Of a DNA stretch of 64,000 bases, positions 195 through 58,300 are shown piece after piece. Under the pieces are notes generated by a model that saw nothing but the letters and a program-made list of their open reading frames with translations, did no database searches and was not told where the DNA came from. Within the stretch, counting starts at the first letter, position 1; each line of letters begins with the position of its first letter. The stretch spans positions 3,800,922-3,864,921 of the forward strand of contig NC_064756.1 in the NCBI RefSeq assembly GCF_011397635.1. Reading direction: 5' to 3'. Source of the DNA: Epinephelus fuscoguttatus (taxonomy: Eukaryota > Chordata > Actinopteri > Perciformes > Serranidae). Position numbers and translations under genes: made by a program.

Positions 195-492
195 AGACTC
201 TGAAGCCCGGTCCATGGGAGCTGTCTCTCCTTCCTCCTCCTCCTACACCTCCTCCTCCACCCTCACTGCTGCTGTACAGCGTGGTCACGTTGCCTCGCTC
301 GCAGTAGTTGACACATCTGTCCTGGCTGCAGCGCACCTTGCAGATGGTGGGCGTGAACATCACCTGGATCCTCTCCACCCCTCCCCCTGCTCCTCCTGCT
401 CCTCCTGAGACTGTCTGTCCATCAGCTGGCAGAGAAGAGACGAAGACGATGAGGACAGAGGACAGAAAAAAGGAGAGCCGAGGCTGCAGCAT
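195..492 (-). CDS. ltbp1: ltbp1 coding exon 5; also first coding exon of the short form
   Basis: Read from ATG 492-490 the exon encodes a signal peptide, MLQPRLSFFLSSVLIVFVSS, then a Gly-rich stretch, ERIQVMFTPTICKVRC, CERGNVTTLYS (with an NVT glycosylation site) and GPGFRV before donor GTAAGT (194-189). FTPTICKV and the cysteines that follow match the start of the region shared by LTBP1L and LTBP1S. The long form enters at an internal acceptor after CTGCCAG (AG at 427-426), so its part is 195-425, and the phase-1 join with exon 4 gives TAPS-ADGQTV. An in-frame ATG at 546 is less likely because it buries the signal peptide. The next exon lies beyond the left edge. Confidence 0.85.
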
Positions 493-968
493 GTTGAGCG
501 TTGCAGTCAGAGTTTCTGAGCGTGTTGCATCGTCCGAACTCCCCAAACCTCTCTAACTCTCCCTCACCCGCCTCCCTCTCTCTGTGGCGGAGTGAAAACG
601 AGCGTCGCAGGAAAGAAAGGAGGGAAGGAAGGAAGAAGAAAACGACCAGACGCTTCCCCCTCTTGCTCCGCACTCTTGTTTTTTTCCCAAACACTCCTGA
701 GTGTGTGTGAGCGAGTGAGCAACAGTGTGTCTGAGCAGAAAGTGAGACAGAGCGGGAGAGAGGGAGGTAGAGAGATAATTGAAAGCAGTGTGCAGGACTG
801 GGCTCCACTCCAAACAAAATGTTTAGCAGGGATCTGGTCCATCAGTCCACACTGGGAGAGACAGAGTATTAGTACAGGAGTCGTTCTCTCTCTCTCTTTC
901 ACTCCTTCACTTTCTTCATTTCTTTTTTTTATTTGCCTTTTTCTTGGTATGAGCAGAGAGCTTCTTCT

Positions 969-3666: not shown

Positions 3667-6600
3667 GGTTGTGGGGTCTATTTCCTTCAGCTGCAGAATA
3701 TCATGGTAGTGACCGAATTTCAAACCTGAACTGGTTTTCCTTAACTTTAGATTTTGGTTGGATTTCTGTCGGTTTGGTTGACGTTAAACATTCAGTTTGA
3801 GGTGGAGGGTCATGACAGCCTGACATCACCAAACCAAGTTACAAATGGAACCTCTCAACAATAGACTACAACGTGCAAAGATGAGTGTCAGCAAACTGAC
3901 TTTCTTTTCACGAAAACCTAACATGCCAACTAGTTTGTTCAGAATCAATATTGACGTGACAGCTGCTTAAACAGAAAGTCCCACACTGAAAATGCCTCCA
4001 CAGTGCTCTGCTTTACGGTCGTTGTCTCAAACTTGAACGATTGTGATAAATGTTGTTAAACAACCTTCTGATGTACTCATTACACATGAGACACAAACTG
4101 AGGCTGAATGGAAACAAATCATAACCTAACAGTGTGACTGGACCAGTTCTTGTTTTACTGTAGGACCCCCCAGACTCGTCAGGGGCCCCAGCACTGCAGA
4201 GGGCCGTGGTGGTGTTTAGGTGGAATAGAGGCTGGTTGTTTCTGCTGCTGTTTGTCTATGAGCTCATGTCCTGACTGACTGCAGACTGAACACACACACA
4301 CACTGTTTCTTTATCACTCTCAAGCTTTACTGCACTCTACTGTTTCTTCACTGCACTCTACTGTGTTTCTTCATTACACTCTAATGCATTTCTTTACTAC
4401 ACTCTACTGTGTTTCTTTACTGCACTCTACTGTGTTTCTTCATTACACTCTAATGCATTTCTTTACTACACTCTACTGTGTTTCTTTACTGCACTCTACT
4501 GTTTCTTTACTGCACTCTACTGTGTTTCTTTACTGCACTCTACTGTGTTTCTTCACTACACTCTAATGCATTTCTTTACTGCACTCTACTGTGTTTCTTT
4601 ACTGCACTCTACTGTGTTTCTTTACTGCACTCTACTGTGTTTCTTTACTGCACTCTACTGTTTCTTTACTGCACTCTACTGTGTTTCTTTACTGCACTCT
4701 ACTGTGTTTCTTCACTACACTCTAATGCATTTCTTTACTGCACTCTACTGTGTTTCTTCACTACACTCTAATTCATTTCTTTACTGCACTCTGTTTCTTC
4801 ACTACACTCTAATGCATTTCTTTACTGCACTCTGCTGTGTTTCTTTACTGCACTCTACTGTGTTTCTTCACTACACTCTAATGCATTTCTTTACTGCACT
4901 CTGCTGTGTACCTTTACTGCACTCTACTGTGTTTCTTTACTGCACTCTACTGTATACCTTTACTGCACTCTACTGTGTTTCTTTACTGCACTCTACTGTA
5001 TACCTTTACTGCACTCTACTGTGTTTCTTTACTGCACTCTACTGTTTCTTTACTGCACTCTACTGTGTTTCTTCACTACACTCTAATGCATTTCTTTACT
5101 GCACTCTACTGTGTACCTTTACTGCACTCTGTGTTTCTATACTGCACTCTACTGTGGACCTTTACTGCACTCTGTGTTTCTATACTGCACTCTACTGTGG
5201 ACCTTTACTGCACTCTGTGTTTCTTTACTGCACTCTACTGTGTTTCTTCACTACACTCTAATGCATTTCTTTACTGCACTCTACTGTTTCTTTACTGCAC
5301 TCTACTGTGTTTCTTCACTACACTCTAATGCATTTCTTTACCGCACTCTACTGTGTACCTTTACTGCACTCTGTGTTTCTTCACTACACTGTACTGTGTT
5401 TCTTTACTGCACTCTACTGTTTCTTTACTGCACTCTACTGTGTTCCTTTACTGCACTCTACTGTTTCTTTACTGCACTCTACTGTGTTTCTTCACTACAC
5501 TCTAATGCATTTCTTTACTGCACTCTGCTGTTTCTTTACTGCACTCTATTGTGTACCTTTACTGCACTCTACTGTTTCTTTACTGCACTCTACTGTGTAC
5601 CTTTACTGCACTCTGTGTTTCTTTACTGCACTCTACTGTGTTTCTTCACTACACTCTAATGCATTTCTTTACTGCACTCTACTGTTTCTTCACTGCAGTC
5701 TACTGTGTTCCTTTACTGCACTCTACTGTGTTTCTTCACTACACTCTAATGCATTTCTTTACTGCACTCTACTGTTTCTTTATTACACTCTACTGTGTTC
5801 CTTTACTGCACTCTACTGTGTTTCTTTACTGCACTCTACTGTGTTTCTTCACTACACTCTAATGCATTTCTTTACTGCACTCTACTGTTTCTTTACTGCA
5901 CTCTATTGTGTACCTTTACTGCACTCTGTTTCTTCACTACACTCTACTGTGTACCTTTACTGCACCCTACTGTGTTTCTTTACTGCACTCTACTGTGTTT
6001 CTTCACTACACTCTAATGCATTTCTTTACTGCACTCTACTGTTTCTTTACTGCACTCTATTGTGTACCTTTACTGCACTCTGTTTCTTCACTACACTCTA
6101 CTGTGTACCTTTACTGCACTCTGTGTTTCTTTACTGCACTCTACTGTGTTTCTTCACTACACTCTAATGCATTTCTTTACTGCACTCTACTGTATCTTTA
6201 CTGCACTCTACTGTGTACCTTTACTGCACTCTACTGTGTTTCTTCACTACACTCTAATGCATTTCTTTACTGCACTCTACTGTGTACCTTTACTGCACTC
6301 TACTGTGTTTCTTCACTACACTCTAATGCATTTCTTTACTGCACTCTACTGTTTCTTTACTGCACTCTATTGTGTACCTTTACTGCACTCTGTTTCTTCA
6401 CTACACTCTACTGTGTACCTTTACTGCACTCTGTTTCTTCACTACACTCTACTGTGTACCTTTACTGCACTCTGTGTTTCTTTACTGCACTCTACTGTGT
6501 TTCTTCACTACACTCTAATGCATTTCTTTACTGCACTCTACTGTATCTTTACTGCACTCTACTGTGTACCTTTACTGCACTCTACTGTGTTTCTTCACTA

Positions 6601-9600
6601 CACTCTAATGCATTTCTTTACTGCACTCTACTGTGTACCTTTACTGCAAACTGTTTCTTTGCTGTTTTCACCTGTTTGTTTTTTACTGCCCTCTCCTGTG
6701 TTTCTTTATCGTCCTCTATTGGTTCCTTGGTGTTAAGAGGTGAACCCCTGCTTCACACTTCATGACATCATCTCAGAAATGATCCTTTTCTGATCAATCA
6801 ATAACCACCTTAAATTTTCATCCCTTCCTTCATCAGTTTCATAGTAAAGCAGCAGTTCTCCAGTCAGTCCCCTCCACAGCTGGACAATCACAGGAACTGT
6901 TTATGGGTCTAATCAGAGTGATCAGGCCTGCACTATGAGACTGTATTAACATTCACCTTATCTGAAGCTAACACACAGAAACAAACTGGCATTCCAGCTC
7001 CATTAAATCACAGTGAGCCTGTTTTTCCAACAATGTATGGCTAACAGATTTGACCTGACTGTGTTGTACACTTTATCTCTCCATACCTCCCTATCAGCTT
7101 CACACCAGTTATTACACTAAATAATGACCCATGTGTTTTGGTATGTGTGTTAAATACACTGTAAGCTCATGTTAACATGTCCAGACATGAGAAAGCTTGA
7201 TTATAACGTCTGCTCTCGTATCCTGAATCCCTCCAGCAGCACCAGGCAAACATTACACAACTGGTACACACACATCGTCTTCCCCTCAGGATGAATTGTG
7301 ATAACTTAATAATCCTCTGACTTTCCATGACGCACCATCACTGGGTCATCATTTTATTATATATCTAACACTTTGGCTTGTTTAATATGAAGAGATTTTA
7401 ATCTACTGCAGCTGACAGACTGTGTGTGTGTGTGTGTGTGTGATGTGTGCATTAACTGACCTGAGGGTGCGGTGACGTGGATGGTGTACTGGCCCTTCTG
7501 AGTGTAAAAGGTCTTCACGCTGGTTTTTACTGCGGACGATGACGTTGATGAGGATGAGGCGTTAGGGGAGGAGAAAGAGGAGGTCACAGTGACTTTCTTC
7601 CTCTCCTTCTCAATGTGCTTCATCAGCAGGGCGGCCATCTTGTCTCCTCTTCCTCCCCGTGACAAAGTCTTCCTCAGCAGAACCGCCTGGGCCTCCCTCA
7701 GACTGTTACAAACAATAAATACACACATATTACATACACAGAAACACACATAATATACAAAGTATACACTGAAATATTACTGCATTTGGTATAGATATGG
7801 TTACATTAGTTACTTTGTAACTTTGTTTGGTTAGTTTGGCAGTTCGTCTTTGGCTTCACCACACAGCTCTTAAAACAACACAGTCATCATCAACATGAAC
7901 TGACTGGTATGACGGTAAGAATGTTCTCAGATGGAGGGAGTATGAATGTGGGCCGGTTATTTTCTCTGTGTGATAAACTGTGTTTCTGAAAGAATGATTT
8001 AAAATGTCCTTAAATAGTCTGATGAAAAGCAGCTCGGAGAACAAACAATACACATCAATCTGCACTGATAATGAATACACACTCAGAGACACCCTGCAGT
8101 CTGATGAAAGTCTATTTTTCATCTATGATCTCACATGTTACAGCTGCTGGTTTGTTTAGAGAAGCTTTTTATTAGTGAGTTACACAATGCAGAGGTGGAC
8201 GGATAAAACTGAAATCCTTTGAGAAACTGGTTTCTAGAGGACCAGAACTATCATATTCGAACAACATGCTTATGTTCTAGCAGGCAACTCATATTTAATT
8301 CATTACATCAGCTTTATATTGCTCCAGGAGTTTGACAGAGTATAAACCAAACCTCCAATCTGGCATGAAATATGTCAACAACTATTATTGGATGAATTGT
8401 GATGAAATGTGTTTAGAGCATCCCGGTGTTCAGAGGAAAATGTTGGCATTGTTTGTTTCTGCAAACCACAGATATATTTGTACTTCTCATACGAATCATA
8501 TCAATGCTTCATAGTATTTGGGCTGACTTTGTCATCTGGAGGTGGAGGCAATGGTGGATGGTGGGTCACCGAGGCAAGACGCCTGCCAAGCTGGAGACCT
8601 CTGCAGACCAATATCCGACACCACAAAACCAAAGCACCCAACAGGTGGATGTTTTTAGCAACTTGTAGCTGTTTTTCTAGCGGGGATTATGCCCCCATAA
8701 CTGGGTATTTTAAGCCAAAACACGACCTTTTTCTGACCATAACCAAGTGGTTTTTGTAAATTAGATTTGTAAGTTTCATAAGTATTATATTAACGTTTCC
8801 AAAGTGATGCAGTATATGAGCTGACTTTGTCATCAGGAGGTGGAGGGAATGGTGGATGGCGTGACACCGTCATGACATGCCTGCCAAGCTGCAGACCACT
8901 GTTCAAGACCAACAACAAAAAGAGTTGGGTTTCCGTGAGTCTTCACTGTGCTTCCAGCAGCTTTTTAGGCACCAAACATGGGTGTTTTTACCAACTTGTC
9001 ACTGTTTTTCCAGCTGGGACTGTGCCCCCAAGTGTGAGAGTTTTTAAGGTCCTCTCCATATTTTTCCAGTGGCTCTTTGGTCACCTACACATGGGTGTTC
9101 TCTTAGCAATTTATCACTGTTTTTCCAGGCAGCACTGTGCCCCACATGTGGATGTCTTATTCCGGTAAAGTTTTAAAGTACCTGCTACATAATAATGTAC
9201 AAATGTAACATGTCCATGGTTTGCAGAAATGTACCAGTAAGACCAGTTTTTTTTAGGCAACTGGGTTCTTTGTAATCCATGTTCACCGTGATTGCCTAAC
9301 GTTGGCATACTAACATACTACACTAAAATGTTAAACATGATTAAACATAAACTGCCATTTACAGAGTCTTTGAGGGCGATTGTAACCACTGGGATTAAAA
9401 AAATATTATTGTGACAGTATATCATGTCCAGGTAGCCACAAAACTGCAGAAAATATGATTATGTCTATCTACCATCTTTGTTTGGATTACAGAAAAGGTC
9501 ACGACTTGAAAAACAGGTTAAAAATCATTTTTAATGTTCAGCAGAGAGAATATTTTGTCATCAGGACAGTGGGTTAAACACCAGGGACCATATTCACCAA

Positions 9601-11438: not shown

Positions 11439-13786
11439 AGTACAGTATGTACCTTACAGTATTTACAGTGTATTATCAGGTGAAGAGCACCACCTGCAGT
11501 CTGAACAGAAGAATGCAAATTTATTCTCGTGTTTCCAACATAAATTCTGTCGCTGTTTTCTGGTGTTAAACTTTATCTTTCTTATTTCAAGCACAAAAAA
11601 TAGAGATTAAAATGTCTAAATATTGTAGAATTTGACAGCTTTTGAAATGAAGTATCTTATTACATTTGTCTGACAGCTTGAGCTACTTTATAAATAAAGA
11701 TGTTTGGACACAAAACATGAAAACAAACAGCTGAATTAATTAGTCAGTTAATCTATTTACAGAAAATGTATTGGCAACTATTTTGAAGTACATTTTCCTG
11801 AGCATACTTCTAATTTTTTATTCAAGTAATAATGTCAATGAAGGACTTTTAATTGGGTTAGTACAGTAGTATTTGTACAGTGTAGTATCAGTAATTGAAA
11901 ACTTCCTCCACCACTGTTAGTAACTGCAGCTGACTGACAGATAAATGTAGTGCAAACAGAGTGAGAAAAGAGAAGAGGAGCAGAGAGGAGTTACCTTACC
12001 TCAGAGGCTGCTTCTTTGCTCCTCCAGTCTTCACCTCCTCCTTCTTCTTCTTCTCCACCTCCTCTCCCGTCCCACCATCATCCACCTTTTTCTCCGACCT
12101 CTGCCCAGGATCAGACCCCAGATGAAGGCCGTACTCTTCACCAGGCTCAGCGTTCAACTCCAAGTTCAGTCTGTCCTCAGCTTTAAACCTCCACTCCAGG
12201 TTTGGGATTTTAGAGGCCGTTAATCTTTCCACCATCTCAGATTCTGAGTCAGACTGTTGGGTTAATCTTTTATCCTCTGGTTTAGAAGTTTCGTTTAAAT
12301 CTAGTGACATCTTTCCCTTAGTGTGAGACCAGGACAGAGACTCCAGCTTTGGGGTTTTGAAGGCGTGTGATTCCTCCTCTTCCTCTGCTTCTGATTTTAA
12401 CTTTGGAGTTTCTTGTGTTTTAAGCTCTGTGATGCCGGCTGTGACTTCTCCTCTCTCCTCCTCACTGTCTCCTGTCTGCAGCTGCAAGTTGTTGAACTTG
12501 GGTGTTTGCGTCCTCTCGGCTCTCCGCTCCACCTGTGGTCGTTTTGGGGAGGCTTGGTTCTCCTCCTGCATTAGAAGCTCCTTCGAAACACCTCCTCTGT
12601 CCTCAGCTTTAGTTTCAGGTTTTACTCTAAACTGTCCAGACTTCTCAGGAGCAGATTCTGGGATCTTTGCATCGCCCTGCTTGTTGTGGGTCTCAGGTGC
12701 TGGTTTGGGTTTGCTGGTTGTCATGAAGGCAGGAGGCGTTACCGTGACAGCAGGACCGGAGCGAGCTGAGAGGACTCTGGTCTTCCTGATGGCGGGGCGT
12801 TGAGCAAGTCTGGCGTCTCTGTAGGAGGTGAAGGTGAGTTCTCGGTGTGGGACGATGCTGGGAGGAACAGACGAGGTCAGCACTGCAGAGGAAACCTCAC
12901 AGCGGTTACCGTGGAAACCCCGTCGACACACACAGCGGTTAGACTGCCGGCACAATGCGCCATTTTGGCAACGAGGAACACACCTGGCTACAGGAGGAGA
13001 GGAGACAAGGAGAAGAGTGAAGGAAAGGAGAGGAGAGGAGCAGTTATTCTAGTTTTGTATTTTTCATTTGTTTTTATTTGTATTTCATTTTTCATTTTTT
13101 GTTTTCAGTTCACTTTAGTCTCAGTTAGTTCCCAGAGGGTTTGTTTGTTTCAGAGGTGAGGAGGGTTGACAAAGAGAGGAGAGAGGAGAAGGCACAAGGA
13201 GAGGAGGGGGGGAGACAAGGAAAGTAGAGGGGAGAGGAACAGCTTATTTTTAGTTTAGGTTATTTTTAGTGAACTATAATAGCCTTGGAGAGGAGGAGAG
13301 GGGGAGAGGAGACAAGAAGGAGGCAAGGAGAGAAGGGGAGAAGAGGAGACAAGAAAAAGAGAGTTAACAAGGAGAGGAAACAAAGGGGAGGGATGAGGAG
13401 AGGAGAGAAGGCAAAGAGACAAGGAGATGAAGACAGGAGACAAGGCAAAAAGACAAAGAGAGGAGAGAGGCCAAAGGAGGAGAGGAGACAAGGTGTGGTG
13501 AGGAGGAGGAGGAGGAGGAGGAGGAGGAGGAGGAGGAGGAGGAAGAGAGGAGACAAGGAGAGAAGGAAAAGAGTTAACAAAAAGAGGAAAAAGGGGGAAG
13601 AGAGGAGAAAAGGAGACAAAGAGAGGAGGAAAGGAGACAAAGAGAGGAGGAAAGGATAGAAGAGAGGGAGGAGACAAGGAGGGGTGACAGAGAGGCAAGG
13701 GGAGAGGACACAAGGTGTTGATGTTGAGTGACGACATAATTAGTTACTAAAAACCTGCACAGGACTTAAAAAAATGGACCTGACAG

Positions 13787-16900: not shown

Positions 16901-19900
16901 GGAGTCCACCTTTGAACCATGAACATGTGACGCAGCATCAGTCTGCTGTGTATAAAGTCACATCTGTAGTGACTCAGCAGCTTCACACTCAGGATGGATG
17001 TGACAGCGCCCGACTAACCTGCTCCACGTTGGAGGTTTGAAGTTCTTACAGCAACAGTACTACAAAATGTGATATACATGGGCAGAGCCACATTTTTAGT
17101 ATTTCTCAAGCTGTCATATGGACATTTTAAGTGTTTTATATCAGAATTGTGCAACAACGAAGAGTCATAAGAAAACTATGTCTTGAATTTTCATCGACTA
17201 ACACGTTTGGAATTTTCGTCAACTAAAACTAGACTAAAATTATGAAGGATAAAAATGACTAAAATGTGATTAAAACTCATAAGCATTTTTGTCTCAAGAC
17301 TAAGACTAATTCTAAAATAGCTGTTAAAATTAACACTGAACAGAAGCAGAATTTGTGTTTGCATAACAACCATAGCCAGCAATATCAGCGATTTTGAGCA
17401 TATGAGAGTTTTATAGCTATTCTGTATATTGTGGTAATGAGAATTACCTCACAAACTGAAATCAAACATTTCCTGGAATAACTGGAATAATAAAAATGCG
17501 TGACTCACATCCATGATTGAAACTCGGATCATGGCACAAAACTCAGATCATGACATATGGATTGTCCAAGTGGTGTAGCTGTAGGTAGCTGTCCAAGATG
17601 GCTGACCTTTTCACCCACACACATCTCACATCGACGCATGACTAACATCATGTATTGACACACCCCACCATCACAACTGAATGGCAACGCAGTCCAAAGC
17701 TCTCTGATTGGATGATCTTACAGCAGTGCACTCTGGGACTCGTAGTTGCCTTCTCTCCTTCACTTGTTAAGGAAACAGTCTTTGACTTTTTGTTCAATAA
17801 AAGTAGAATTTAAATGTGTGATTTAAACAGAATGACTAAACTGTTTCACTGTTTATAAAATAATTTAAAAAATAAATAAAATTAAATGACATGCAATTTA
17901 TACATAATCAGCTGACACATGTGACCTATCCAGCCTTTTGTGATGCTTTTATTCTATTCAGAAAGTAAAAGAACTTCAAACTAAAAGAAATCTGATGTTT
18001 CTGAGATTCAGGTGAGTTTTTACTGAGGAGCGACAGCAGTTTCCTGTTAGAGGAACTTTGATATCTGCAGCTGCTCCGCTGTTTTACTACAACATGACTG
18101 CTGCAACTGAACACAGATGAAAGATGAAAAAAAAATACAGATGTGGTGAAAATGTGTTTGAATAAATCATACTTTGATTAAATCTGTTGGACAAAACAGA
18201 GTTATTGTCATCGCAGTGTTTGTTTTCTTTACATTATATTAGTTTGAGAAGAAAAACGTAAATTCACCAGACTTTCAAATAATGACCAGTGGTGGAGGTG
18301 GACGTACTCAGATCTCAGATAACTAAGTAAAATACTATTACCACAGTGTAGAGATACTCTGTTACAATTAAAGGTCCTACATTCAAGTTAAATGGCCACA
18401 CGGCATACCAGCCAATCATAAGCCTTTGTAGCGCTGTACCTTCATGTCTCAGGAGCCATTGTGAGTCCCGAGCAGTGAGCCTGAGGTTTGATTCAGAGTG
18501 GGACGACAAATGGTGACAGCAGTCTGTACTCACGTTTGGTGCATCGTCTGGTTCTGGGTGACAAAGTCCAGCCGACACAACACCGACCACCACAGACATG
18601 AGGACTGCAGACAGACAGACAGAGAGTGAGTTATAATTTTCATTCTCTATTTAGTTTTTCTGGTCTTATATTGTTAATAATTTGGCATGTTCATTATTAT
18701 AACCGTCACCAAGAAAATTAAAAAATAAAAACATATAATTTTTCCCTAAATTAGTGAACAGACTGTCCAATAGTTTAAATAACAAATTAAGTCTTTTATG
18801 TTCCAGATAACAGTGAAAATACTGCCTATCGTGAACGCAGCATTGTACGCACGAGAGCATGATCACATCAGTGGCAGCTATCAACAAAGCAGCATGGCTG
18901 AGAGAAAGAGGTCGAAGGTGTGGCTCCATATCTCAAAGTTTGATGCAGACTACGCTCGCTGCAACATTTGCGACGCAAGGCCAGCTACGGAAATACCTCA
19001 AACCTGAGGAAGCACCTGGTCAAGCACAAGGTGTTTTTAAAGGCTGACGACTGCACAGTATTTGATAGCCTGAAAGTTAAGGCTACTTCTCCCAGCGTTA
19101 GCACACCTGCAGCTAGCGGCTCGTTGTCATCTGCAGCCAGCATCGAGGCAGAAGAAGTGGGATTAACATGCGATGATGACGACGGTGATTAAGTGGGGCA
19201 TCAGCTACATCGGTTCCAGGTAATTAATAAGCTTAGTGTTTAAGATGATTGGGCTTTGTTCTGGTCATTCTAACGTTAGCTTCACATTTTAACTTGCCTT
19301 AGTTATCATTATCAGCTCGGTTCCTCGTATTCTCTATCTTTAACGTTACACTCCCCAACACACATTTTTCCCAGAGGGGAAAGAGGAGGAATAGGAGGTA
19401 GTAGGAGTGGGTTTATTTTGTGCAATAAAAAGAACTGCTGCATAGTCAATTATATAGGCTACCTTTTGATATTATGTTACAGTGTTAGATGTCGTTTTAT
19501 CCTGTTTGATACTGAGAAATAAATGTTAGTTTTGACAAAAAAAATTCTAAATGAAATATCCTTTATTACCACACATACAAGCAAAAAAAGTAAACAGGTA
19601 CCGTTGCGTACCGGTACCGATTCCCAGGTACCGGGTATCGGTACCGTATCAGTTCAAATGTGAAAGGTACCCATCCCTACCACGGAGGCATGTGAGAAAA
19701 GTTTTCTTCGTGAATTCACCGTAACACGAGATGAGTAACTGATATACAAATGATCGTTTTTCATTTTCAACCTATAGCCTCTCTTACAGTGCCTGTTGAA
19801 GGCGGGAATATTGCTATATTCTGTTACCTCATCATTCTGTATGCAAGGCATGATCCCGTAATGGAGGATTTGACGATGTGTTATGTACATGACCCACTAT

Positions 19901-28200: not shown

Positions 28201-28985
28201 CAATCACAGGCCCCTGAATCAAACTGAACAGAAACCGTATCATGACAGACTTTGTTATATCGGCAAATATCGTATCGTTGTCCAAAGTATCGTGATTAAA
28301 CCAGTGATTTATACCTCTAATGTTTACGTGTTATGATATCTGTCTGTCTACTTATCTATCCATCTATGTTTTCAGGAGCATTGACCATCACCTGATTGTA
28401 ACCAGTAAATGATTTAATGGTTAACTGGGAAAAAAGTTGTATTTTTTACAGTAATTTAGCAGTTACATAAGAACTTCTTGACATATTGCTGCACAGGAAA
28501 AATATAAAACTTTTATCTTATCTTAAATATTATCATGTATATTACATGCAGTCTGTAAGAAGTGCTGCAGACACTAAATCATAAATAGATGACCTGATTG
28601 ATGGTTTTGTTTGTTTTTACGTCTTTAGCTATAAAAACAAAACTCAGTGAGGTCCTTCTTCCCCAAACTTGACATGAGTGTGTTCAGCAGGTTTTGGACC
28701 ATTTAACAAAAAGTCTGTGTGAATATTATGGCACACATACAAACACTGATTGCAACCAGGGTTCAGGGTGTTAGATGTATGTGCTGCTCACCCGTTCAAG
28801 GGTGCCCTCCTGCCGCCGAGCTTCTCCCCGGATCTCCTCACCGCCGCCGGCTGCAGCAGGGTCGGTGTACCGGTGCTCTGCCTCCTCCTCCCTCCGGACT
28901 GCACGCCTCCCTCCTGCCGCTCAGGGGGATGCTGAGCTGCGGTGTGAAGAGTTAAAATCCAAACGCACCAGAGAGAAACCAGCAT
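195..28985 (-). CDS. ltbp1: latent TGF-beta binding protein 1-like gene, 5' part (long and short forms)
   Basis: LTBPs are secreted matrix glycoproteins that bind latent TGF-beta through its propeptide and tether it to fibrillin and fibronectin. Five coding exons were found on the minus strand, and all junction phases agree (2/1, 1/2, 2/1, 1/2). In order they give a signal peptide, a VCGGRCC cysteine motif, an EGF-like domain, a long low-complexity linker, a Ser/Thr-rich stretch, and the FTPTICKV block that opens the region shared by both isoforms. The motifs VCGGRCCVGW, RCTKPRC and FTPTICKV fit LTBP1 better than LTBP2, LTBP3 or LTBP4, but LTBP2 cannot be excluded. About 575 codons of the long form lie here. 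The hybrid, TB and later EGF domains must lie left of base 1. The order of exons, the phases and the internal second start fit the known LTBP1L/LTBP1S arrangement. Confidence 0.85.
426..478 (-). promoter_or_regulatory. ltbp1: internal 3' splice site of the ltbp1 long form inside short-form coding sequence
   Basis: The roughly 50 sense-strand bases before AG 427-426 are nearly all C and T and contain no other AG. The same bases encode the hydrophobic core of the short-form signal peptide. The phase works: exon 4 ends with one base (G) and this acceptor supplies CT to complete an Ala codon. Confidence 0.75.
493..1020 (-). promoter_or_regulatory. presumed 5' UTR and promoter region of the ltbp1 short form
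   Basis: This is the sequence immediately upstream of the short-form ATG in gene direction. It is strongly purine/pyrimidine biased, with GA-rich blocks at 570-650 and 740-780 and a CTG run at 974-999. No clear TATA box was seen. The assignment rests only on position; the transcription start is unknown. The many overlapping short open frames here are low-complexity artefacts. Confidence 0.35.
2411..2560. repeat. 53-bp tandem repeat, about 2.7 copies
   Basis: The core aaagcctaaggcagagagag begins at 2417, 2470 and 2523 (the last copy diverged), giving a 53-bp period. Copies differ at only a few positions, and the second and third share the 5' side catgcgcctacatgg. Confidence 0.85.
3355..3664. 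repeat. paired TG and CA microsatellites in inverted orientation
   Basis: A (TG)n tract at 3355-3411 and a (CA)n tract at 3597-3664 lie 185 bases apart on the same strand, so they are complementary to each other. Cysteine/valine open frames across them are artefacts. Confidence 0.9.
4324..6650. repeat. 23-bp minisatellite array, about 100 units, in ltbp1 intron 4
   Basis: The main unit is tttctttactgcactctact plus gtg. Recurrent variants are one with cttcactacactctaatgca, one beginning tacctttactgc, and shorter units of 21 and 18 bases. The unit has no stop codon in any plus-strand frame and is not a multiple of three, so long open frames appear in all three frames and repeat the same FFTALYC/LLHSTV/YCTLL words. 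These are not genes. The edges decay into diverged units before 4324 and after 6650. Confidence 0.95.
6651..7460. other. ltbp1 intron 4, right end: no gene
   Basis: This stretch between the minisatellite and exon 4 appears unique and AT-rich, with a short TG microsatellite at 7423-7443 close to the exon 4 donor. No exon or named repeat was seen. Confidence 0.5.
7461..7702 (-). CDS. ltbp1: ltbp1 long form, coding exon 4
   Basis: The exon runs from acceptor GTAACAG (ending at 7703) to donor GTCAGT (from 7460). Joined to exon 3 it reads QPLSLREAQAVLLRK, which resembles a conserved QPLTxxEAxALLxR segment in other LTBPs. A Ser-rich stretch and FYTQKGQYTIHVTAPS follow. It is 242 bases long and ends in phase 1, which fits only the internal acceptor of the next exon. 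The open frame continues into the flanking intron on both sides and is not coding there. Confidence 0.72.
8431..9246. mobile_element. foldback-type repeat, copy 1 (inverted ends, internal repeats)
   Basis: The left end (8431-8483) contains tgtttctgcaaaccacagat followed by atttgtac, and the right end (9197-9240) carries the reverse complement, gtacaaatg then catggtttgcagaaat. Between them, blocks such as gctgactttgtcatc..ggaggtgga recur (8521 and 8820), and a short motif around ggtgtttttagcaacttgtc..gctgtttttc is repeated. A second copy is at 41255-42185. No transposase is visible, so it is a non-autonomous element. Boundaries are approximate. Confidence 0.65.
9584..10353. mobile_element. MITE-like DNA element with inverted ends
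   Basis: The left end gggaccatattcacc and the right end (reverse complement gggggccatattcac) are inverted copies about 770 bases apart. Inside are complementary blocks built on ctcctaacttag / cctaagtttttcaccttagg. No protein is encoded. It lies in ltbp1 intron 3. The target duplication is not clear. Confidence 0.55.
11397..11438. repeat. TG microsatellite
   Basis: An uninterrupted (TG)n tract of about 20 dinucleotides in ltbp1 intron 3. Confidence 0.95.
12000..12987 (-). CDS. ltbp1: ltbp1 long form, coding exon 3 (EGF-like domain and charged linker)
   Basis: The acceptor (TGTAG, ending at 12988) is preceded by a very long pyrimidine tract on the sense strand. The exon opens by completing the EGF-like domain, RCVPRCQNGALCRQSNRC then VCRRGFHGNRCE, with the expected cysteine spacing. 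The remaining roughly 290 residues form a Glu/Lys/Ser/Pro-rich linker with no cysteine and no recognisable fold, ending in a run of Glu and Lys. The exon ends CTG-AG before donor GTAAGG (11999-11994). At 988 bases it is much longer than I would expect from the matching part of mammalian LTBP1L. Confidence 0.8.
13150..13720. repeat. polypurine tract with an AGG triplet run
   Basis: About 570 bases on the plus strand are almost all A and G, built on gagga, gacaagga and similar words, with an (AGG)14 run at 13501-13542. On the ltbp1 sense strand this is a pyrimidine tract beginning about 160 bases upstream of the exon 3 acceptor. The Pro/Leu/Ser open frames (minus) and Arg/Glu/Gly frame (plus) at 13255-13737 are composition artefacts. 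Confidence 0.9.
13790..13998. repeat. TG microsatellites
   Basis: There is a pure (TG)n tract at 13790-13840 and a second, interrupted gtgtatgt/gtgtgt tract at 13933-13998. Both lie in ltbp1 intron 2. Confidence 0.9.
14365..15660. mobile_element. degenerate DNA-transposon-like interspersed repeat, interrupted
   Basis: Two segments (about 14365-14790 and 15220-15660) resemble one family of dispersed vertebrate repeats. The first has aatgggagacaggtctggac; the second has ctttgatgatattatgga and ends with cctaacttttttggaacatg followed by cattcagaataagtgtatat. Several frames are closed, so it is dead. The intervening 430 bases have a different character and look like a nested insertion. Family assignment is from memory of similar fish and frog repeats. 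Confidence 0.5.
14790..15220. mobile_element. probable nested insertion, unidentified
   Basis: This CG-richer stretch interrupts the flanking repeat. Near its left side are gaacgttgcagagagaag and cagtgtgaactggc; near its right side are gtgtgaaccagcagg and acgacgttgcag, which suggests imperfect inverted ends. No coding capacity was seen. Confidence 0.35.
15680..16110 (+). pseudogene. LINE reverse-transcriptase fragment (CR1/L2-like), degenerate
   Basis: A broken plus-strand frame gives VENVEQFKYLGTIIDQTLTF, a word typical of the thumb region of CR1/L2-type LINE reverse transcriptases (FKYLGxxID). Further matches follow in shifted frames to about 16110. Stops and frameshifts show it is dead. 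It lies in ltbp1 intron 2. Confidence 0.6.
17185..17342. repeat. fish-type interspersed repeat (hAT-MITE-like)
   Basis: The sequence ttttcgtcaactaaaactag, then aaaatgactaaaatgtgatt and ttaaaattaacactgaac, resembles a very common teleost short element. A related fragment appears at about 36222-36330. No open frame. Confidence 0.45.
18534..18604 (-). CDS. ltbp1: ltbp1 long form, coding exon 2 (VCGGRCC motif)
   Basis: A 71-base exon sits between a strong acceptor (CTGCAG, ending at 18605) and donor GTGAGT (from 18533). It encodes PHVCGGRCCVGW followed by a Thr/Arg-rich stretch and RCTK, the N-terminal cysteine motif just before the first EGF-like domain of LTBPs. It is too short to stand out as an open frame and was found by matching this motif. 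It enters with one base and leaves with one base, joining exons 1 and 3 in frame. Confidence 0.85.
18798..19192 (+). pseudogene. BED zinc-finger exon of a hAT-type transposase, frameshifted
   Basis: One frame reads KRSKVWLHISKFDADYARCN then ICDARPA; the next frame continues SYGNTSNLRKHLVKHKV. Together they make a BED finger (W, CxxC, then HxxxxH), the N-terminal DNA-binding domain of many hAT transposases. A one-base change near 18980 breaks the frame. A Ser/Ala-rich tail ends in an acidic run and a stop at 19190-19192. It lies less than 200 bases from ltbp1 exon 2. No catalytic domain remains. Confidence 0.65.
19590..19680. mobile_element. terminal segment of a hAT-like element
   Basis: A run of ggtaccg words (taccggtaccgattcccagg, then gggtatcggtaccgtatc) ends in ggtacccatccctac. 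Elements of this style in fish end with tagggatgggtacc-type inverted repeats. It may be the right end of the element whose BED exon lies at 18798-19192; no matching left end was found. Confidence 0.5.
19968..20085 (+). pseudogene. Myb/SANT-like exon remnant of a Harbinger-type element
   Basis: The frame MPAKWENNEVQELLTLRAED plus KISHHITGT resembles the first helix region of trihelix/Myb-like proteins that accompany PIF/Harbinger transposases in fish. The following sequence does not continue the domain, so only a first exon or a deletion derivative is left. No inverted ends were fixed. Confidence 0.4.
20743..21281. repeat. three CA/TG microsatellites
   Basis: (TG)n lies at 20743-20771 and 21184-21207, and (CA)n at 21242-21281. 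The last two are complementary and only 34 bases apart. Confidence 0.9.
21594..22010. mobile_element. foldback-type repeat, copy 3 (partial), with about 62-bp internal tandem units
   Basis: The start agaggaaaatgttctgcaaa resembles the left end of copies 1 and 2 with part deleted. Five diverged units then follow, built on gatagtggcac, aaaagcagttgttttttacc and gctgcatttcctgcc, with a period near 62. The same unit appears in reverse complement within 41400-42000. The end is cut near the TTAA-flanked element that follows. Confidence 0.55.
22051..23485. mobile_element. TTAA-flanked DNA transposon with long inverted repeats
   Basis: TTAA (22047-22050) and TTAA (23486-23489) flank a 1,435-base unit. 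It begins agaatactcagacgatttgg and ends with the reverse complement of aggaatactcagacgatttt. The inverted repeats are about 355-365 bases each (22051 to about 22415; about 23130 to 23485), with a few mismatches. TTAA target sites are known for piggyBac and Kolobok elements. Its only coding remnant is the P2X7-tail-like protein inside, so it is a deletion derivative. Confidence 0.8.
22501..22957 (+). pseudogene. P2X7-tail-like zinc-domain protein in the transposon, frameshifted
   Basis: The frame from 22501 reads MDDFERDFEEFLVADTDPEP then YLFEPYTNEEL and stops at 22609-22611. In the next frame WMDAEQARTEAES continues and leads to DWWCSCGACQPMPMEVESFC then CTEWD, a WCxCGxCxxMP...CC pattern like the intracellular tail of P2X7 receptors. 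Related domains occur in many repetitive fish genes. A single shift near 22597 separates the halves. A possible donor (GTGAGT) follows FQSS near 22950, and no downstream exon remains. Confidence 0.6.
23500..23671. repeat. short tetranucleotide repeats
   Basis: (CATA)n lies at about 23498-23516 and (CAAA)n at 23648-23672. Confidence 0.85.
24225..24395. mobile_element. foldback-type repeat, end fragment
   Basis: The words ctcctgatgacaaagtcagc and tcatacacttcatcacttg are the reverse complement of 8805-8850 in copy 1. The segment closes with gtacaatcgtgtagtttgca, a diverged form of the family's terminal repeat. Confidence 0.5.
25220..25401. repeat. CA/TG microsatellites
   Basis: (CA)n lies at 25220-25249, a short (GT)n at 25298-25311, and (CA)n at 25366-25401 with interruptions. 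Confidence 0.9.
26937..27645. mobile_element. PIF/Harbinger-type non-autonomous element
   Basis: TAA (26934-26936) and TAA (27646-27648) flank a 709-base unit. The first 35 bases (ggggg, tgatcacacctacaaggagc...) and last 35 are inverted copies with two mismatches. A TWA target duplication and a GGG start are hallmarks of the PIF/Harbinger superfamily. The remaining coding part is a MADF-like exon. Confidence 0.82.
27300..27444 (+). pseudogene. MADF-like first exon inside the Harbinger element
   Basis: From ATG 27300 the frame reads MAMQCNDEWFILTVYNYEEL then YNPSIPQYSNKHRRAHAW, with the order of hydrophobic, LYxPxxxxY, RRAxAW residues seen in MADF domains that accompany Harbinger transposases. 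A good donor (CCG then GTGAGT, 27445 on) ends the exon. The rest of the domain and the transposase are absent. Confidence 0.6.
27659..27826 (-). mobile_element. tRNA-derived SINE, copy A, lacking the B box
   Basis: In minus orientation it begins gtcggtggcttagtggtaga (A-box-like) and ends in a T/A-rich tail. The box-B segment present in the two other copies is missing between gccgcagca and gcctttgctgcatg, a deletion of about 25 bases. Flanking direct repeats taaggcataaaac (27646-27658) and taagacataaaac (27827-27839) differ by one base and are its target duplication. Confidence 0.8.
28792..28985 (-). CDS. ltbp1: ltbp1 long form, coding exon 1 (signal peptide)
   Basis: The start at 28985-28983 is followed by a hydrophobic signal peptide, MLVSLWCVWILTLHTAAQ, then a basic Arg/Gly-rich stretch. 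An in-frame ATG also lies upstream at 29027, but the downstream one places the hydrophobic core correctly. The exon is GC-rich. It ends in ...APLN-GG before donor GTGAGC (28791-28786), leaving two bases of a Gly codon that the T of the next exon completes. Proteins on the opposite strand at 28719-28999 are shadows of this exon. Confidence 0.78.
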
Positions 28986-29099
28986 GTTTACAGAGCTGAT
29001 GATGATCAATAGCTTACTGATAATCAATCAACACTGACTGATGCATCGCGTGTATCTGCAGTTCACTGAAAGTGTCGGACCTGTGACTGATTGAAAGTT

Positions 29100-37999: not shown

Positions 38000-39180
38000 C
38001 AGAGGATCGAAATTACTTTTTCTCTTCAGACCCTCGGTGCAGACAGTACACTGGACATAACGTGCAAATATAAAATATAATAAGTAGAGGCATAAATAAA
38101 ACCTGAGCTAAAAAGAGTTATACTCTAAAAAGTAAAAAGGCACAGTGGTAGCAACACAAACAATGTAGTGCAATGACAGTGCACTATGAGTAACAGTGGT
38201 GCAAATGGAAGCTTATGGACTGGATAAAGTGTATGTGTGCCTGTATAGTTCAGAGTTCAGTGTTGATGGGGGGAGGGGGTTCGTTGTCCAGCGATTGAGT
38301 GGGCAGGGGGCAGAGCAGGGAGAGAGTTAAGCATCCTGACATCCTGGTGGAAAAAGCTGTCTCCTCCCTGATGGCAGCGGGCTGAAGAGGCTGTGTGACG
38401 GGTGGGTGGGGTCACCGGCGATGCAGAGGGCTTTGCGGGTGAGACGGGTAGAGTATGTGTCCTGGAGGGAAGGGAGAAGGACACTGATGATCTTCTCAGC
38501 TGCTCTCACGGTGCGCTGGAGGGTCTTACGGCAGGACACGGGACAGACACCGTACCGCACCGTGATGGAGCTGGTCAGGATGCTCTCAACGGCGCCTCTA
38601 TAGAAGGTCTGCATGATGGGGACCGGGGCTCTGGCTCTTCTCAGCTTGCGGAGAAAGTAGAGGCGTTGGTGGGCTTTCTTGGCCAGTGATGTGATGTTGT
38701 TGGTCCAGGAGAGGTCCTCTGTGACGTGCACACCCAGGAACTTGGTGCTGCTCACCCTCTCCACAGCAGCCCCTTGATGGTCAGAGGGGCATGCTTGCTG
38801 GGTGTGTACTCTCCTGAAGTCCACAACAATCTCCTTCGTCTTCTCGACATTCAGAGAAAGATTGTTATGTCCACACCACAAGGACAAACGGTTCACCTCA
38901 CTCCTGTAATTTGTCTCATCATTGTTGCTGATGAGAGACCCACACGGTCGTGTCATCCGCAAACTTGATGACGAGGTTTGAGCTGTGCGACGGTGTGCAG
39001 TCGTGGGTCAGCAGAGTGAAGAGGAGGGGGCTCAGCACACATCCTTGGGGGGCCCCCGTGTTCAGTATGATGGTGCTGGATGCATTGCTGCCGACCCGTA
39101 CCGCCTGTGGTCTCCCGGTCAGGAAGTCCAGCAGCCATTTGCACTGCGAGGTGTTCAGCCCCAGCCGGTCCAGTTAAACA
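38000..39180 (-). mobile_element. 5'-truncated CR1/L2-type LINE, minus strand
   Basis: Reading down from 39180, the frames give [34 protein letters not shown] (the FADD catalytic box), then after a frameshift near 38945 SEVNRLSLWCGHNNLSLNVE, KFLGVHVTEDLSWTNNITSL and SHSLFSPLPSGRRQLF. These are the C-terminal half of a CR1/L2-like reverse transcriptase. The 3' untranslated part extends to about 38000. It is dead because of the frameshift and missing 5' half. Confidence 0.8.
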
Positions 39181-53669: not shown

Positions 53670-55170
53670 CCATCCATCCGTCCATCCATTTCCATCCACT
53701 TATCCGGGGCCATGTCATGGGGGCAGTGGGTCAAGCAAAACATCCCAGATGTCCCTCTCCGATGCGTTCCAGCTCCTCCTGGGGGACCCCATGGTGTTCC
53801 TTGGCCAGATGAGATACATAATCCCTCCAGCATTTTCAGGGTCTGCCCCGGGGCCTCCTACCTGTTAGATGTGCCCGGAACACCTCTAACAGGAGGCGCC
53901 CAGGAGGATCCTGATCAGATGCCCGATCCACTTCAACTGGCCCCTTTTGACACGAAGGAGCAGCGGCTCTACTCCAAGCTCCCTCCTATGGCAAGTCGTT
54001 TTAATATTTAATCGCTATTCATTACTGATATCTGCAACATAATTTTGCCTAGTCAAAACTCTTATTCAAGATATCTGTAATTAGATTTTGCCTAGTCAAA
54101 ACTACAGTTACAGATATCTGTAATTCAGTTTTGACTAGTAAGATTCAAACTATTTTTGCCATTCATGTGTATGGGGTTTGTCATTACAGATATCTCCAAT
54201 GTAGTTGCGGATATCTGCAACTGAATTGTGGATATCTGTAATTCCAGTTTGAGATATCTACAATTTAATTTTGACTAGTCATAATTCGAGTTCAAGATAT
54301 CTTTAATTATCATCAATTGAAGATATCTACATGGTCCTTTCTAGATATCTTGAATTGAGTTTCAGATAGTCAAAATGACGTTGTAGATATCCGCAACTGA
54401 ATTATGACTAGTCAAAATGACATTGTAGATATCTGTAACTGAATTATGACTAGTCAAAATGATGTTATAGATATCCGCAACTGAATTATGACTAGTCAAA
54501 ATGACGTTGTAGATATCCGCAACTGAATTATGACTAGTCAAAATGACGTTGTAGATATCTGTAACTGAATTATGACTAGTCAAAATGACGTTGTAGATAT
54601 CTGTAACTGAATTATGACTAGTCAAAATGATGTTATAGATATCCGCAACTGAATTATGACTAGTCAAAATGACGACTAGTCAAAATGATGTTGTAGATAT
54701 CCGTAACTGAATTATGACTAGTCAAAATGACGACTAGTCAAAATGACATTGTAGATATCCGTAACTGAATTATGACTAGTCAAAATGACGACTAGTCAAA
54801 ATGATGTTGTAGATATCCGCAACTGAATTATGACTAGTCAAAATGACGTTGTAGATATCTTAAATTAAAATTCATACTAGTCACAAAGACATTACTACTA
54901 GTCAAAATGACGTTATAGATATCTATAATGGTAATTCCGGATAGTCAAACTTAGTGATTAAATGTTAAAACGGCTTGCCATACCCTCCTGATGTCTGAGC
55001 TCCTCACCTTCTCTCTAAGGCTAAGCCCAGACACCCCACAGTGAAAACTCATTTTGTATCCACGATCTCATTCTTTCAGTCACTACCCAAATCTCATGAC
55101 CACAGATGAGGGTTAGGACGTAGATGGACCAGTGAATCGAGAGCTTTGTCTTCCACACTAAGAGTGATTC
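53670..55170 (-). mobile_element. LINE reverse-transcriptase fragment, minus strand, split by an insertion
   Basis: The minus strand near 55150-55030 reads KTKLSIHWSIYVLTLICGHE then IWVVTERMRSWIQNE, like the KAKLSIYRSIYVPTLTYGHE end of an abundant fish LINE reverse transcriptase (probably RTE-related). The segment 53986-53690 is its 3' continuation, ending in a (GGAT)n-type tail (tatccatccatccgtccatc on the plus strand). A 996-base element separates the two parts. Confidence 0.65.
53987..54982. mobile_element. inverted-repeat DNA element with 42-bp internal tandem repeats
   Basis: CCCTCC at 53981-53986 and 54983-54988 is the 6-base target duplication. The ends are inverted copies, tatggcaagtcgttttaata with tttaatc and its counterpart gattaaa.gttaaaacggct with tgccata. 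From about 54360 to 54850 the interior is an array of 42-bp units built on gactagtcaaaatgacgttg and tagatatccgcaactgaatt. No transposase is present. A six-base target duplication recalls IS3EU-type elements; that assignment is a guess. Confidence 0.82.
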
Positions 55171-55369: not shown

Positions 55370-58300
55370 TCTTGAAAATGCTTGAATTCGTCTTTGGTGC
55401 TCATTTAGTTGTGTTGTTTATTTGCATAAACAACAGAATTATGATAAGGGTCTCTATTTGGATGCCACTGCCTCACTGATTCACACGTGAAGAGGCCAAC
55501 AAAGGGCAGCCTATGTCCTTTACATCAGCTGAGTCATACTGTCATATCTTAACAGCTTCTAATGAGCCTGAACATGTGTACACTTAAAAAGTGTTAGACC
55601 TGTCAAGTTGATGTTATTCCCATATGACAGCAGTGTGGCATTCCAGACACTGAGTTCAAAACAGGAAGTGTCACAGCTGTGGATGTAATGTGTTATGGCA
55701 GGTTTTTGGTCCGAGCCAAGTCTAGAGGGACGTCTGGCAAACTCGAGGATGTGTTTGTGAGGATGGGAGCAGCTGCAGACAGATCCCGAAATTATTTATA
55801 CTTTTTTAAAGATGAGTATTTTGGGGCATTTTTGCCTTTACATAGTTGACAGAATGGACTGAGAAGAAACACTGGGAGACAGCGAGGTGGAAAGTGCGAG
55901 GTGGGTACACAGGGGTGCCCCACAAACATGTAGACGTTAGTTAATGATGGCATTCAGTGCCCAATGAAGGCAGCACCAAAAAGAAGTTAAAACAACTTGC
56001 ATGATTTATTTTCTCATTCAGGATCAACAGGTAATGTGCACAATAAACCAACAATCTCACCACAAGTTTGTTTCTAAGAATGATATCTCAATATCAAGTT
56101 CAAGCCAACTCGAATAAGAAGTCCTTGAAATTGATCTGCTGAGGAGGTGCATGTGATCGGAAGCTCAAGAACAACTTTACAATATCCAAAGTTGCCAAAT
56201 ACCACAGCTTTGTCAGTGATTTTGGTGTCAGATGCCAAAAGCCACCATTCACAGTGGTTTGATAAGCTGCCAGGCGGCGTCAGTTTGTAAGGCGACTGGA
56301 TGGAATCTTTCGGGGAATAATGATACGCTGCCAGTTGGCCACAGCACCTCTTGCCGCAGTATTATATGCGGATCAGTATATAACACAGCCAAATGATACC
56401 TGTCCAGGTGGTACGGTACATGGCTGGACAGCAGGCGTTAGTTTCACATGCTTCCGTGATGACGTAATGTAAGGAAAGTCTCTATAGGGTGGGCTGGACA
56501 GGTGGTGGATGGGTCCAACAAACCCCAGACTTTCACCAGGGAGCCCGGTGTTCACTTTAACAGGCCAAACCATGACGCTCTTTGAGACATCCCCGCATTG
56601 GTTGCAGAGTCCTGGAACATTAACAGCAGACACAGGAGGATACCCAGCATGTAATATGTAGCCTTGAAAGTCCTCTGACAAAGCAGCGATATGTGATGAC
56701 TTGGGATGAGAACATGTTGCACTATAATAAAATCTTAGACAACTGGCCTTCAAGAATAAATGTTATGCCTTTATGATAGTAGAGATGATAGGACATGAGG
56801 GCTGAGAGAGATCCAATTAAACTTGTCTGTGCCCCCAGTATTATGTGTAAAGATAGGGCAGTACTTCCTTTATGACAAACTCGACATTGAACCTCCTGCC
56901 ATCCATCAACAGCTTGCTGGAGAGCATCAGGGCTGAGAGCTTACAGCCTTGCCAGCGTCCGAAGATCACAGACGATATTGTTGACTGTTATTTTCTGACA
57001 GCTCCGACTGAGGAACCTGTGATCTTTATGGTGCTGCAGCAAGATACTGCACAGCAATACTTTGACCACTTTGTGTACCTGTGGGGTGTTGAAGGCTGAG
57101 GAGAAGCCAAGGGGAAAAAACAAAGTGAGAATCTTGACAAAAGGTATTTGAGTCTTGTGTGTTGTTAAACCAGCCTGAGGGGTTCACAGCGGCTGCTGTT
57201 CTTACTGGAAGTGGCGTTTGACCTTCATAAGGTGAGTGCTGCTCATGTGAGGTTTGCAGGAAAACAAAAACAGGTTGTTCATCCCTGAGATTCAGTTTAC
57301 ATTCACACAGTCAGATTCAGTTATAAACAAAACTGACCCTATGATAAACCCTTAGCCTTGGACCAAGACGTTCATGCAATGCAATAAACGCCTCTGCTGG
57401 ACATTTTCTTTAAATTCTGTTGGAAACACTGAAGCGTCAACCAACTCAACATTAGCTTAACTAGGTAGCTACAGCTGATTAAATCTGCCTGTGACAACCA
57501 TCACAGCTGCAAAATCAAGTCACCAGCAAGCAGTGATATGCCTGCCTCTGTCTGAAGAAAAAGTAAAAAATGACTTCTTCTTGTTTCCCTGCCTCCTACC
57601 CAATGCATGATGGGTTTGACTCCAACAGAGAAGAGGGTTTTTTTTCACTGATGCCACTACAAACATAATTAAGATAATTAAAAGTAGTGAAGGAACAGAT
57701 GTAAAAAATGCATGCACAAGAGACATTTTGTGGCTTTTTTTAATTTAAAATGGTCTAGTGTTTGTGTTTTTATGGCTGCTCTGATTCTCAGCTTGTGTAG
57801 ATCTCACTGCAAGAGGCGATAAAGGCCAGCACTACATGATCTAGACGTCTGTGTGGTTTTCATAAAACAAACATATCAGATACCTGCAGATGTGCCAGGC
57901 TACAGTGTGAGCGACCCGAGGCTTTGATAGTCTGCGTTCTCATTATGCCTTTGGTAATGCAATAGGTCAGCACGGAGCAGGATCATCCTAAATGTCTGAC
58001 TGGTACACTTTGATCTCTGAAAACTGGTAGAGGTCACCTAAAATGAACCCAACTGCTTCTGCATGAGAGTTAGCTTGACTTGTCTATCAGTTTTAATTCC
58101 TTAATTTCAGGTTGGTTTTTTTGTCTATATTGTCACCTGAGATTTATTGTGTAGGAAAATATTAGCATGTTAGGGAAACACATGCGTCAGAATGCTCAGT
58201 ATCCTATTCCTGCTCACCGTCCCTGCATTCCTGACATTATTGAATCAGTACATCAATTTAATGTTTCATCCCCCGCAGACTGTCTCCAGAGTACGAGCTG

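Follow-up and report, generated by a model that had tools for sequence, protein, structure and literature searches.

The long forms of LTBPs have other N-termini than the short ones and anchor latent TGF-beta in the matrix in a different way. For mouse Ltbp1, the Figure 1 legend of PMC3978911 describes the first four exons as encoding sequence unique to Ltbp1L and places the Ltbp1S promoter, start site, and signal peptide within the fourth intron of Ltbp1L. Exon 5 is the first exon common to Ltbp1L and Ltbp1S (PMC7695435). Two predicted promoters with CpG islands have been described for human LTBP4L and LTBP4S (PMC3669142), and exons that open some transcripts but lie inside others are known as hybrid first-internal exons (PMC10256964). 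Since mouse Ltbp1S was published inside Ltbp1L intron 4, the layout reported below was already known. New in the present work are a branch-point candidate and a prediction of exon 1, together with the probable identity of the gene and a test of synonymous sites that includes comparisons between paralogues.

We analyzed a window (the whole stretch of 64,000 nucleotides [nt] of DNA under study) from Epinephelus fuscoguttatus. At its low-numbered end lies an exon of an LTBP gene which, in our view, probably functions as a hybrid first/internal exon; the gene itself is most likely the orthologue of LTBP4. The features on which the analysis is based are as follows:

28792..28985, minus strand: predicted exon 1 of the long form, encoding a separate signal peptide (MLVSLWCVWILTLHTAA); donor CGG/GTGAGC, phase 2, fitting exon 2
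18534..18604, minus strand: long-form exon 2, CGGRCC module
12000..12987, minus strand: long-form exon 3, first EGF-like module (weak EGF match, below the cut-off)
7461..7702, minus strand: long-form exon 4, donor CAG/GTCAGT
493..700, minus strand: putative short-form 5'UTR/promoter (CpG o/e 0.81, GC 0.54; mean o/e of the window, 0.38)
426..492, minus strand: start codon of the short form (492-490) with the signal-peptide codons after it, up to and including a CCAG acceptor (429-426); bases that would serve both jobs
428..483, minus strand: AG-free, pyrimidine-rich tract, 56 nt, 86% C/T
449..453, minus strand: branch-point-like CTCAT (yUnAy), in which A450 lies 24 nt upstream of the last intron base
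195..425, minus strand: exon 5 itself (231 nt), flanked by phase 1 on either side, donor TCT/GTAAGT

The frame opened on the minus strand by the ATG at 492-490 reads MLQPRLSFFLSSVLIVFVSSLPADGQ and has an in-frame stop upstream. Bases 492-424, from ATG to GCT, translate as MLQPRLSFFLSSVLIVFVSSLPA. The same bases contain a candidate acceptor, whose CCAG occupies 429-426, with 426 as the last intron base. The preceding AG is located at 485-484, and the tract between the two is C/T-rich, not pure (87.5% C/T in a 48-nt part, 475-428). CTCAT is the only yUnAy motif between these two AGs, and the position of its A, 24 nt before the intron end, is at the usual branch-point distance. The end of exon 4 at 7461 is predicted to join 425 in phase 1, with GCT (Ala) at the junction. 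At the level of sequence, the exon thus contains an internal acceptor with a fitting phase and an open frame, as is characteristic of a hybrid first/internal exon.

To rank this acceptor, all minus-strand AGs were scored with a matrix built from consensus frequencies. The acceptor at 426 reached a score of 8.9 and rank 6 of 4388; with the same matrix, the acceptors of exons 3, 2, and 4 were found at ranks 11, 41, and 526, respectively. The AG at 516, an alternative acceptor in frame by inspection, was rejected (score -7.4, rank 2178 of 4388), as was the AG at 484 (rank 1053, out of frame by inspection). Further good AGs are present upstream at 582, 731, and 1291 and could serve a spliced 5'UTR. 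Concerning the signal peptide, the -3/-1 rule fits VSS/L and ADG/Q in addition to the candidate cleavage site LPA/DGQ, and the proline at position -2, which is unfavourable for cleavage, counts against the latter. A PDB search with the short-form exon gave 10 matches up to an E value of 10, none of which was an LTBP.

A preliminary description of this DNA is upheld in part by these results. Its claim that signal-peptide codons starting with the ATG at 492 overlap an acceptor at CCAG 429-426 was confirmed, and so was the phase fit of this acceptor to exon 4, the frame across 7461 and 425 being open. It had also described an AG-free C/T tract of about 50 bases; the lack of AG holds over 56 nt, but at 86% C/T the tract is rich rather than pure. 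The C/T excess that it proposed stood as well (see below), but the gene name LTBP1 did not.

When exons 2 to 5 were joined, one frame contained no stop codons versus 27 and 24 in the other two. The region upstream of exon 2 was scanned for a Met followed by hydrophobic residues and a donor in phase 2, and two candidates for exon 1 were obtained. One of them (28985-28792) is located inside a CpG cluster (28705-29049), and its frame continues into exon 2; the other is at 53291. Predicted exons 1 to 5, joined with 7461-425, give 575 codons in one frame without a stop. Thus, predicted exon 1 and exons 2 to 4 make four long-specific exons before the exon in which the short form starts. Exon 5 would belong to the short form, and to the long form as well should the acceptor at 426 be used. 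Because its 231 nt can be skipped in frame, the 7461-425 junction is given here as predicted.

Several other features of the window were recorded. Exon 4 (7702-7461, minus strand) reads LREAQAVLLRKTLSRGGRG, which resembles a stretch of human LTBP4L and is consistent with LTBP4. Intron 4 of the long form contains, between exon 4 and the putative promoter of the short form, a 23-bp minisatellite (4325-6648, approximately 104 copies, 78% matches). A 26-bp minisatellite (62555-64000, approximately 56 copies, 95% matches) runs to the end of the window, and a 42-bp tandem array (approximately 7 copies, 93% matches) is located at 54367-54674. A 226-aa open frame at 38327-39007 on the minus strand has a Pfam ALKBH8_N match (7.7e-18); judging by its sequence, it is more probably the tail of a LINE-type reverse transcriptase than the repair gene. 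Rfam and tRNA scans of the window gave no hits.

Next to the short-form start, the putative promoter region stands out by its CpG content. Among 7974 segments of 208 nt, 15 had an o/e of at least 0.8 together with a GC content of at least 0.5, and they fell at three places: 433-704, 12721-13000 (around the start of exon 3), and 56257-56472. When CpGs are simply counted, the window has 15 clusters, of which the short-form region is one, and therefore this promoter hint is supportive, not decisive. A seven-codon uORF (530-507, minus strand) directly precedes the short-form ATG and could dampen short-form translation.

Any pyrimidine tract will spell codons for Leu, Phe, Ser, and Pro, which makes overlaps of this kind cheap. 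In 20,000 shuffles of the region, a signal-peptide-like frame with an in-frame Met was present in 5.9% and a hydrophobic 13-mer alone in 37.7%. Read in frame, the intron tail at the 426 acceptor has a hydrophobicity of 2.65; of the three other tails, those of intron 2 (1.83) and intron 3 (2.72) are likewise hydrophobic, and that of intron 1 is at 0.02. The phase match by itself is a one-in-three event. The choice of codons was analyzed with a synonymous null, in which the codons of the 16-codon core (477-430) were re-drawn. The core is 87.5% C/T versus a mean of 72-74% after re-drawing, and the observed C/T content was reached by 0.07% of the draws with equal codons and by 0.08-0.15% with the codon use of the gene's own exons. 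The P value of the excess was 0.0007-0.0015 for the 16-codon core, 0.0012 for 18 codons, and 0.0022 for all 21 codons (up to Leu21). None of the 495 sixteen-codon windows of exons 2-5 matched it (core z 3.08, window maximum 2.88); this z is not standard normal, because its spread across the exon windows is 1.32. The long-form signal peptide of the same gene, for which no acceptor is proposed, has a mild C/T bias (P 0.04-0.06). The absence of AG from the core was unremarkable under synonymous re-drawing (P 0.07-0.20). The C/T content of the signal-peptide codons thus exceeds what the protein needs, and their synonymous sites are biased toward the splice signal, a pattern consistent with dual constraint.

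The genome (1.05 Gb, 26 contigs) was searched with the exon 5 segment, and the best candidates were scored. Five places were found among the matches listed: the window gene on contig C5 and further matches on C16, C14, C12, and C1. Only the C1 match (L008, E 1.6) was dropped from the comparisons, as the stretch viewed contained no LTBP sequence. The downstream exons of the four genes were located by local tblastn. Pfam TB (1.7e-8) and EGF (1.7e-6) matches, both above the cut-offs, in exons downstream of the window assign the window gene to the LTBP family; NCBIfam gave no hits on the downstream EGF and TB exons. As references, we used fragments of human LTBP1 to LTBP4. According to these fragments, the gene on C16 is LTBP1 (105/129 identical), that on C14 is LTBP2-like (89/126), and that on C12 is LTBP3-like (85/118).

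The same measures were then applied to the homologous exon of the four LTBP genes, a comparison within one genome and not a phylogenetic test. The window gene combines 56 nt without AG, a C/T bias with P 0.0007-0.0012, and an acceptor score of 8.9. In LTBP1 (C16, L005), the start reads MDQRVTRMLLSLPLLLVSAMFSTAVG, a phase-1 acceptor (GGCAG/TG, score 1.73) follows 51 nt without AG, and the C/T bias is weaker than in the window gene (P 0.0035-0.0042); yUnAy was absent from the 90 nt before the junction. LTBP3 (C12) has a signal peptide at the same place in the exon, with AGs inside it, a best acceptor score of 0.68, and no C/T bias (P 0.35-0.71 in two overlapping cores). Given the scores of 1.73 and 0.68, the matrix alone does not separate LTBP1 from LTBP3. 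In LTBP2 (C14), an in-frame ATG and an acceptor (3.35) are present; with 17 nt free of AG and no bias (P 0.78-0.83), this ATG is probably fortuitous. The LTBP2-like locus (L006, approximately 1411-1480) also shows a hydrophobic run up to the acceptor without C/T bias, which may be due to chance or to an undescribed short LTBP2. A search for long-form exons 2-4 over 20 kb of upstream sequence at both the C16 and the C14 gene gave a best E value of 0.53, which we took as chance. For LTBP3, the search for upstream exons reached approximately 0.5 kb; LTBP3 is not known to have an upstream long form. A mouse stretch derived from oligonucleotides in PMC3978911 is AG-free and has 22/25 C/T, which for its 7 codons is within chance (P 0.26). 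In this genome, C/T bias and overlap occur together in the two genes that seem to need both readings. Together, the synonymous-site test and the paralogue comparisons support dual constraint.

According to the hybrid-exon reading, transcripts initiated in the CpG-rich region immediately 5' of 492 would keep 492-426 as signal-peptide codons and would give rise to a short secreted protein. Transcripts from the upstream promoter (exon 1, 28985) would treat 492-426 as the end of intron 4: U2AF would bind the C/T tract, A450 would act as the branch point, and exon 4 would be joined to 425. Such splicing would remove the short-form signal peptide, with the boundary no more than a few codons away from the cleavage site. 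We propose that the need for both readings to function keeps the synonymous sites of the signal peptide rich in C/T. Counting against the hybrid exon are the in-frame product of exon 5 skipping (see below), the frequency of in-frame hydrophobic intron tails in this gene, and LTBP2, whose in-frame ATG and acceptor come without C/T bias. The layout and bias of LTBP1 versus the lack of bias in LTBP3 count in support of the hybrid exon, and the high-ranking acceptor together with the codon bias argues that 426 is used at least partly.

The name LTBP1, under which the gene was described at first, was rejected as probably wrong: a clear LTBP1 is present on C16, and the window gene is identical to it at 61/105 positions (three fragments). 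Compared with the human sequences over four fragments, the window gene is as near to LTBP4 (74/129) as to LTBP1 (73/130), a tie. In the reciprocal comparison of the four genes with the human references, however, the LTBP4 fragments are best matched by the window gene (57% vs. 49, 45, and 43%). TB1 (22/34 for LTBP4 vs. 15/34 for LTBP1) and TB2 (33/40 vs. 23/40) are nearer to LTBP4, and the GFRVFLCPL junction (GFRAFLCPL in human LTBP4) favours it too. The PPEAS stretch matches LTBP4 at 15/24, LTBP1 at 14/24, and LTBP2 highest, at 17/24. The exon 5 segment is nearer to LTBP1 (21/38 vs. 15/37 for LTBP4), as is, by one residue, the EGF fragment (23/34 vs. 22/34). The tie and the latter two fragments would suit a fast-evolving second LTBP1 copy, a fish-specific duplicate, which would change the name only and is compatible with any splicing reading. 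We consider such a copy improbable, since both TB domains and the junction favour LTBP4, and since 61/105 to the genome's own LTBP1 seems too distant for a fish-specific duplicate. As that LTBP1 itself is at 105/129 to human LTBP1, the split seems older than the divergence of fish and mammals. By elimination, reciprocal comparison, and the two TB domains, the window gene is most likely the LTBP4 orthologue.

If the window gene is LTBP4, its long form may bypass the short-form exon entirely, just as human LTBP4L skips its short-form first exon. The first exons would then be mutually exclusive, as in human LTBP4: exon 4 would be joined to exon 6, the 426 acceptor would be unused or minor, and the tract would be an ancestral relic or plain signal-peptide composition. 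The length of exon 5 and its phase 1 on both sides would allow this. The exon 4-exon 6 product is in frame and reads APSVLCPLLCKNGG, the exon 6 acceptor has a score of 6.4, and the sequence resulting from the skip, APS-VLCPLLCKNGG, is very like human LTBP4L (APVLCPLICHNGG). However, the acceptor at 426 scores higher and is accompanied by the branch-point-like motif and the AG-free zone, and skipping leaves the synonymous C/T excess unexplained. We therefore regard mutually exclusive first exons as unlikely, while granting them an appreciable chance. It has also to be considered that the exon is an ordinary internal one in a long-form-only gene, in which the ATG and the hydrophobic run are a chance translation of the polypyrimidine tract and no short form is made. 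The frequency of signal-peptide-like frames and hydrophobic runs in the shuffles and the hydrophobic tails of introns 2 and 3 are in line with this, and zebrafish ltbp1 is reported with the long isoform alone in the review PMC10669475. The CpG peak over the short-form 5' region speaks against it, as does an in-frame start that is placed as in mouse Ltbp1S and in LTBP1 and LTBP3 of the same genome; a gene with a long form alone thus appears to us a poor prospect.

Building on the hybrid exon, we tentatively suggest an ancestral LTBP device, a proposal that may well turn out to be wrong. Before LTBP1 and LTBP4 split, the signal peptide would have been written into the polypyrimidine tract, a single stretch thereby serving the choice of promoter as well as secretion and splicing. 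LTBP4 of the window would still use the LTBP1-type acceptor, which mammalian LTBP4 is not known to use. Purifying selection for splicing would be legible in the signal-peptide codons, with LTBP3 as a built-in control. Provided that the overlap is real, silent single-base changes in the signal peptide could shift the ratio between the isoforms, and the set of LTBP paralogues within a single genome is a natural experiment. The result also bears on the statement that zebrafish ltbp1 is made as a long isoform alone (PMC10669475): in the genome studied here, an open start of the short form is retained by LTBP1 as well as by the window gene. The LTBP1 locus of this genome (L005 1411-1620, C16) retains the short-form start together with the signal peptide, in contrast to the zebrafish statement.

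In the literature searched and the papers cited here, we found no description of a signal-peptide tract as an acceptor. Like mouse Ltbp1L/Ltbp1S, the window gene is predicted to have four long-specific exons, with the short-form start and signal peptide in intron 4. Unlike mouse Ltbp1, it is probably LTBP4, and its transcripts are predicted from the sequence; the portion of PMC3978911 drawn on here says nothing about codon choice or the tract as an acceptor. LTBP1 of the same genome is similar in having a phase-1 acceptor that overlaps with the start and signal peptide of the short form, and it differs by the weaker acceptor and the lack of a yUnAy motif before the junction. With human LTBP4L/LTBP4S, the window gene would share the two forms from two predicted promoters with CpG islands, and its TB1 and TB2 match LTBP4 best; human LTBP4L skips the short-form first exon, within which an acceptor-like site lies in the window gene. 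Finally, in comparison with the other hybrid exons, as described in PMC10256964, the part predicted to be dropped from the long form of the window gene is coding and comprises a signal peptide.
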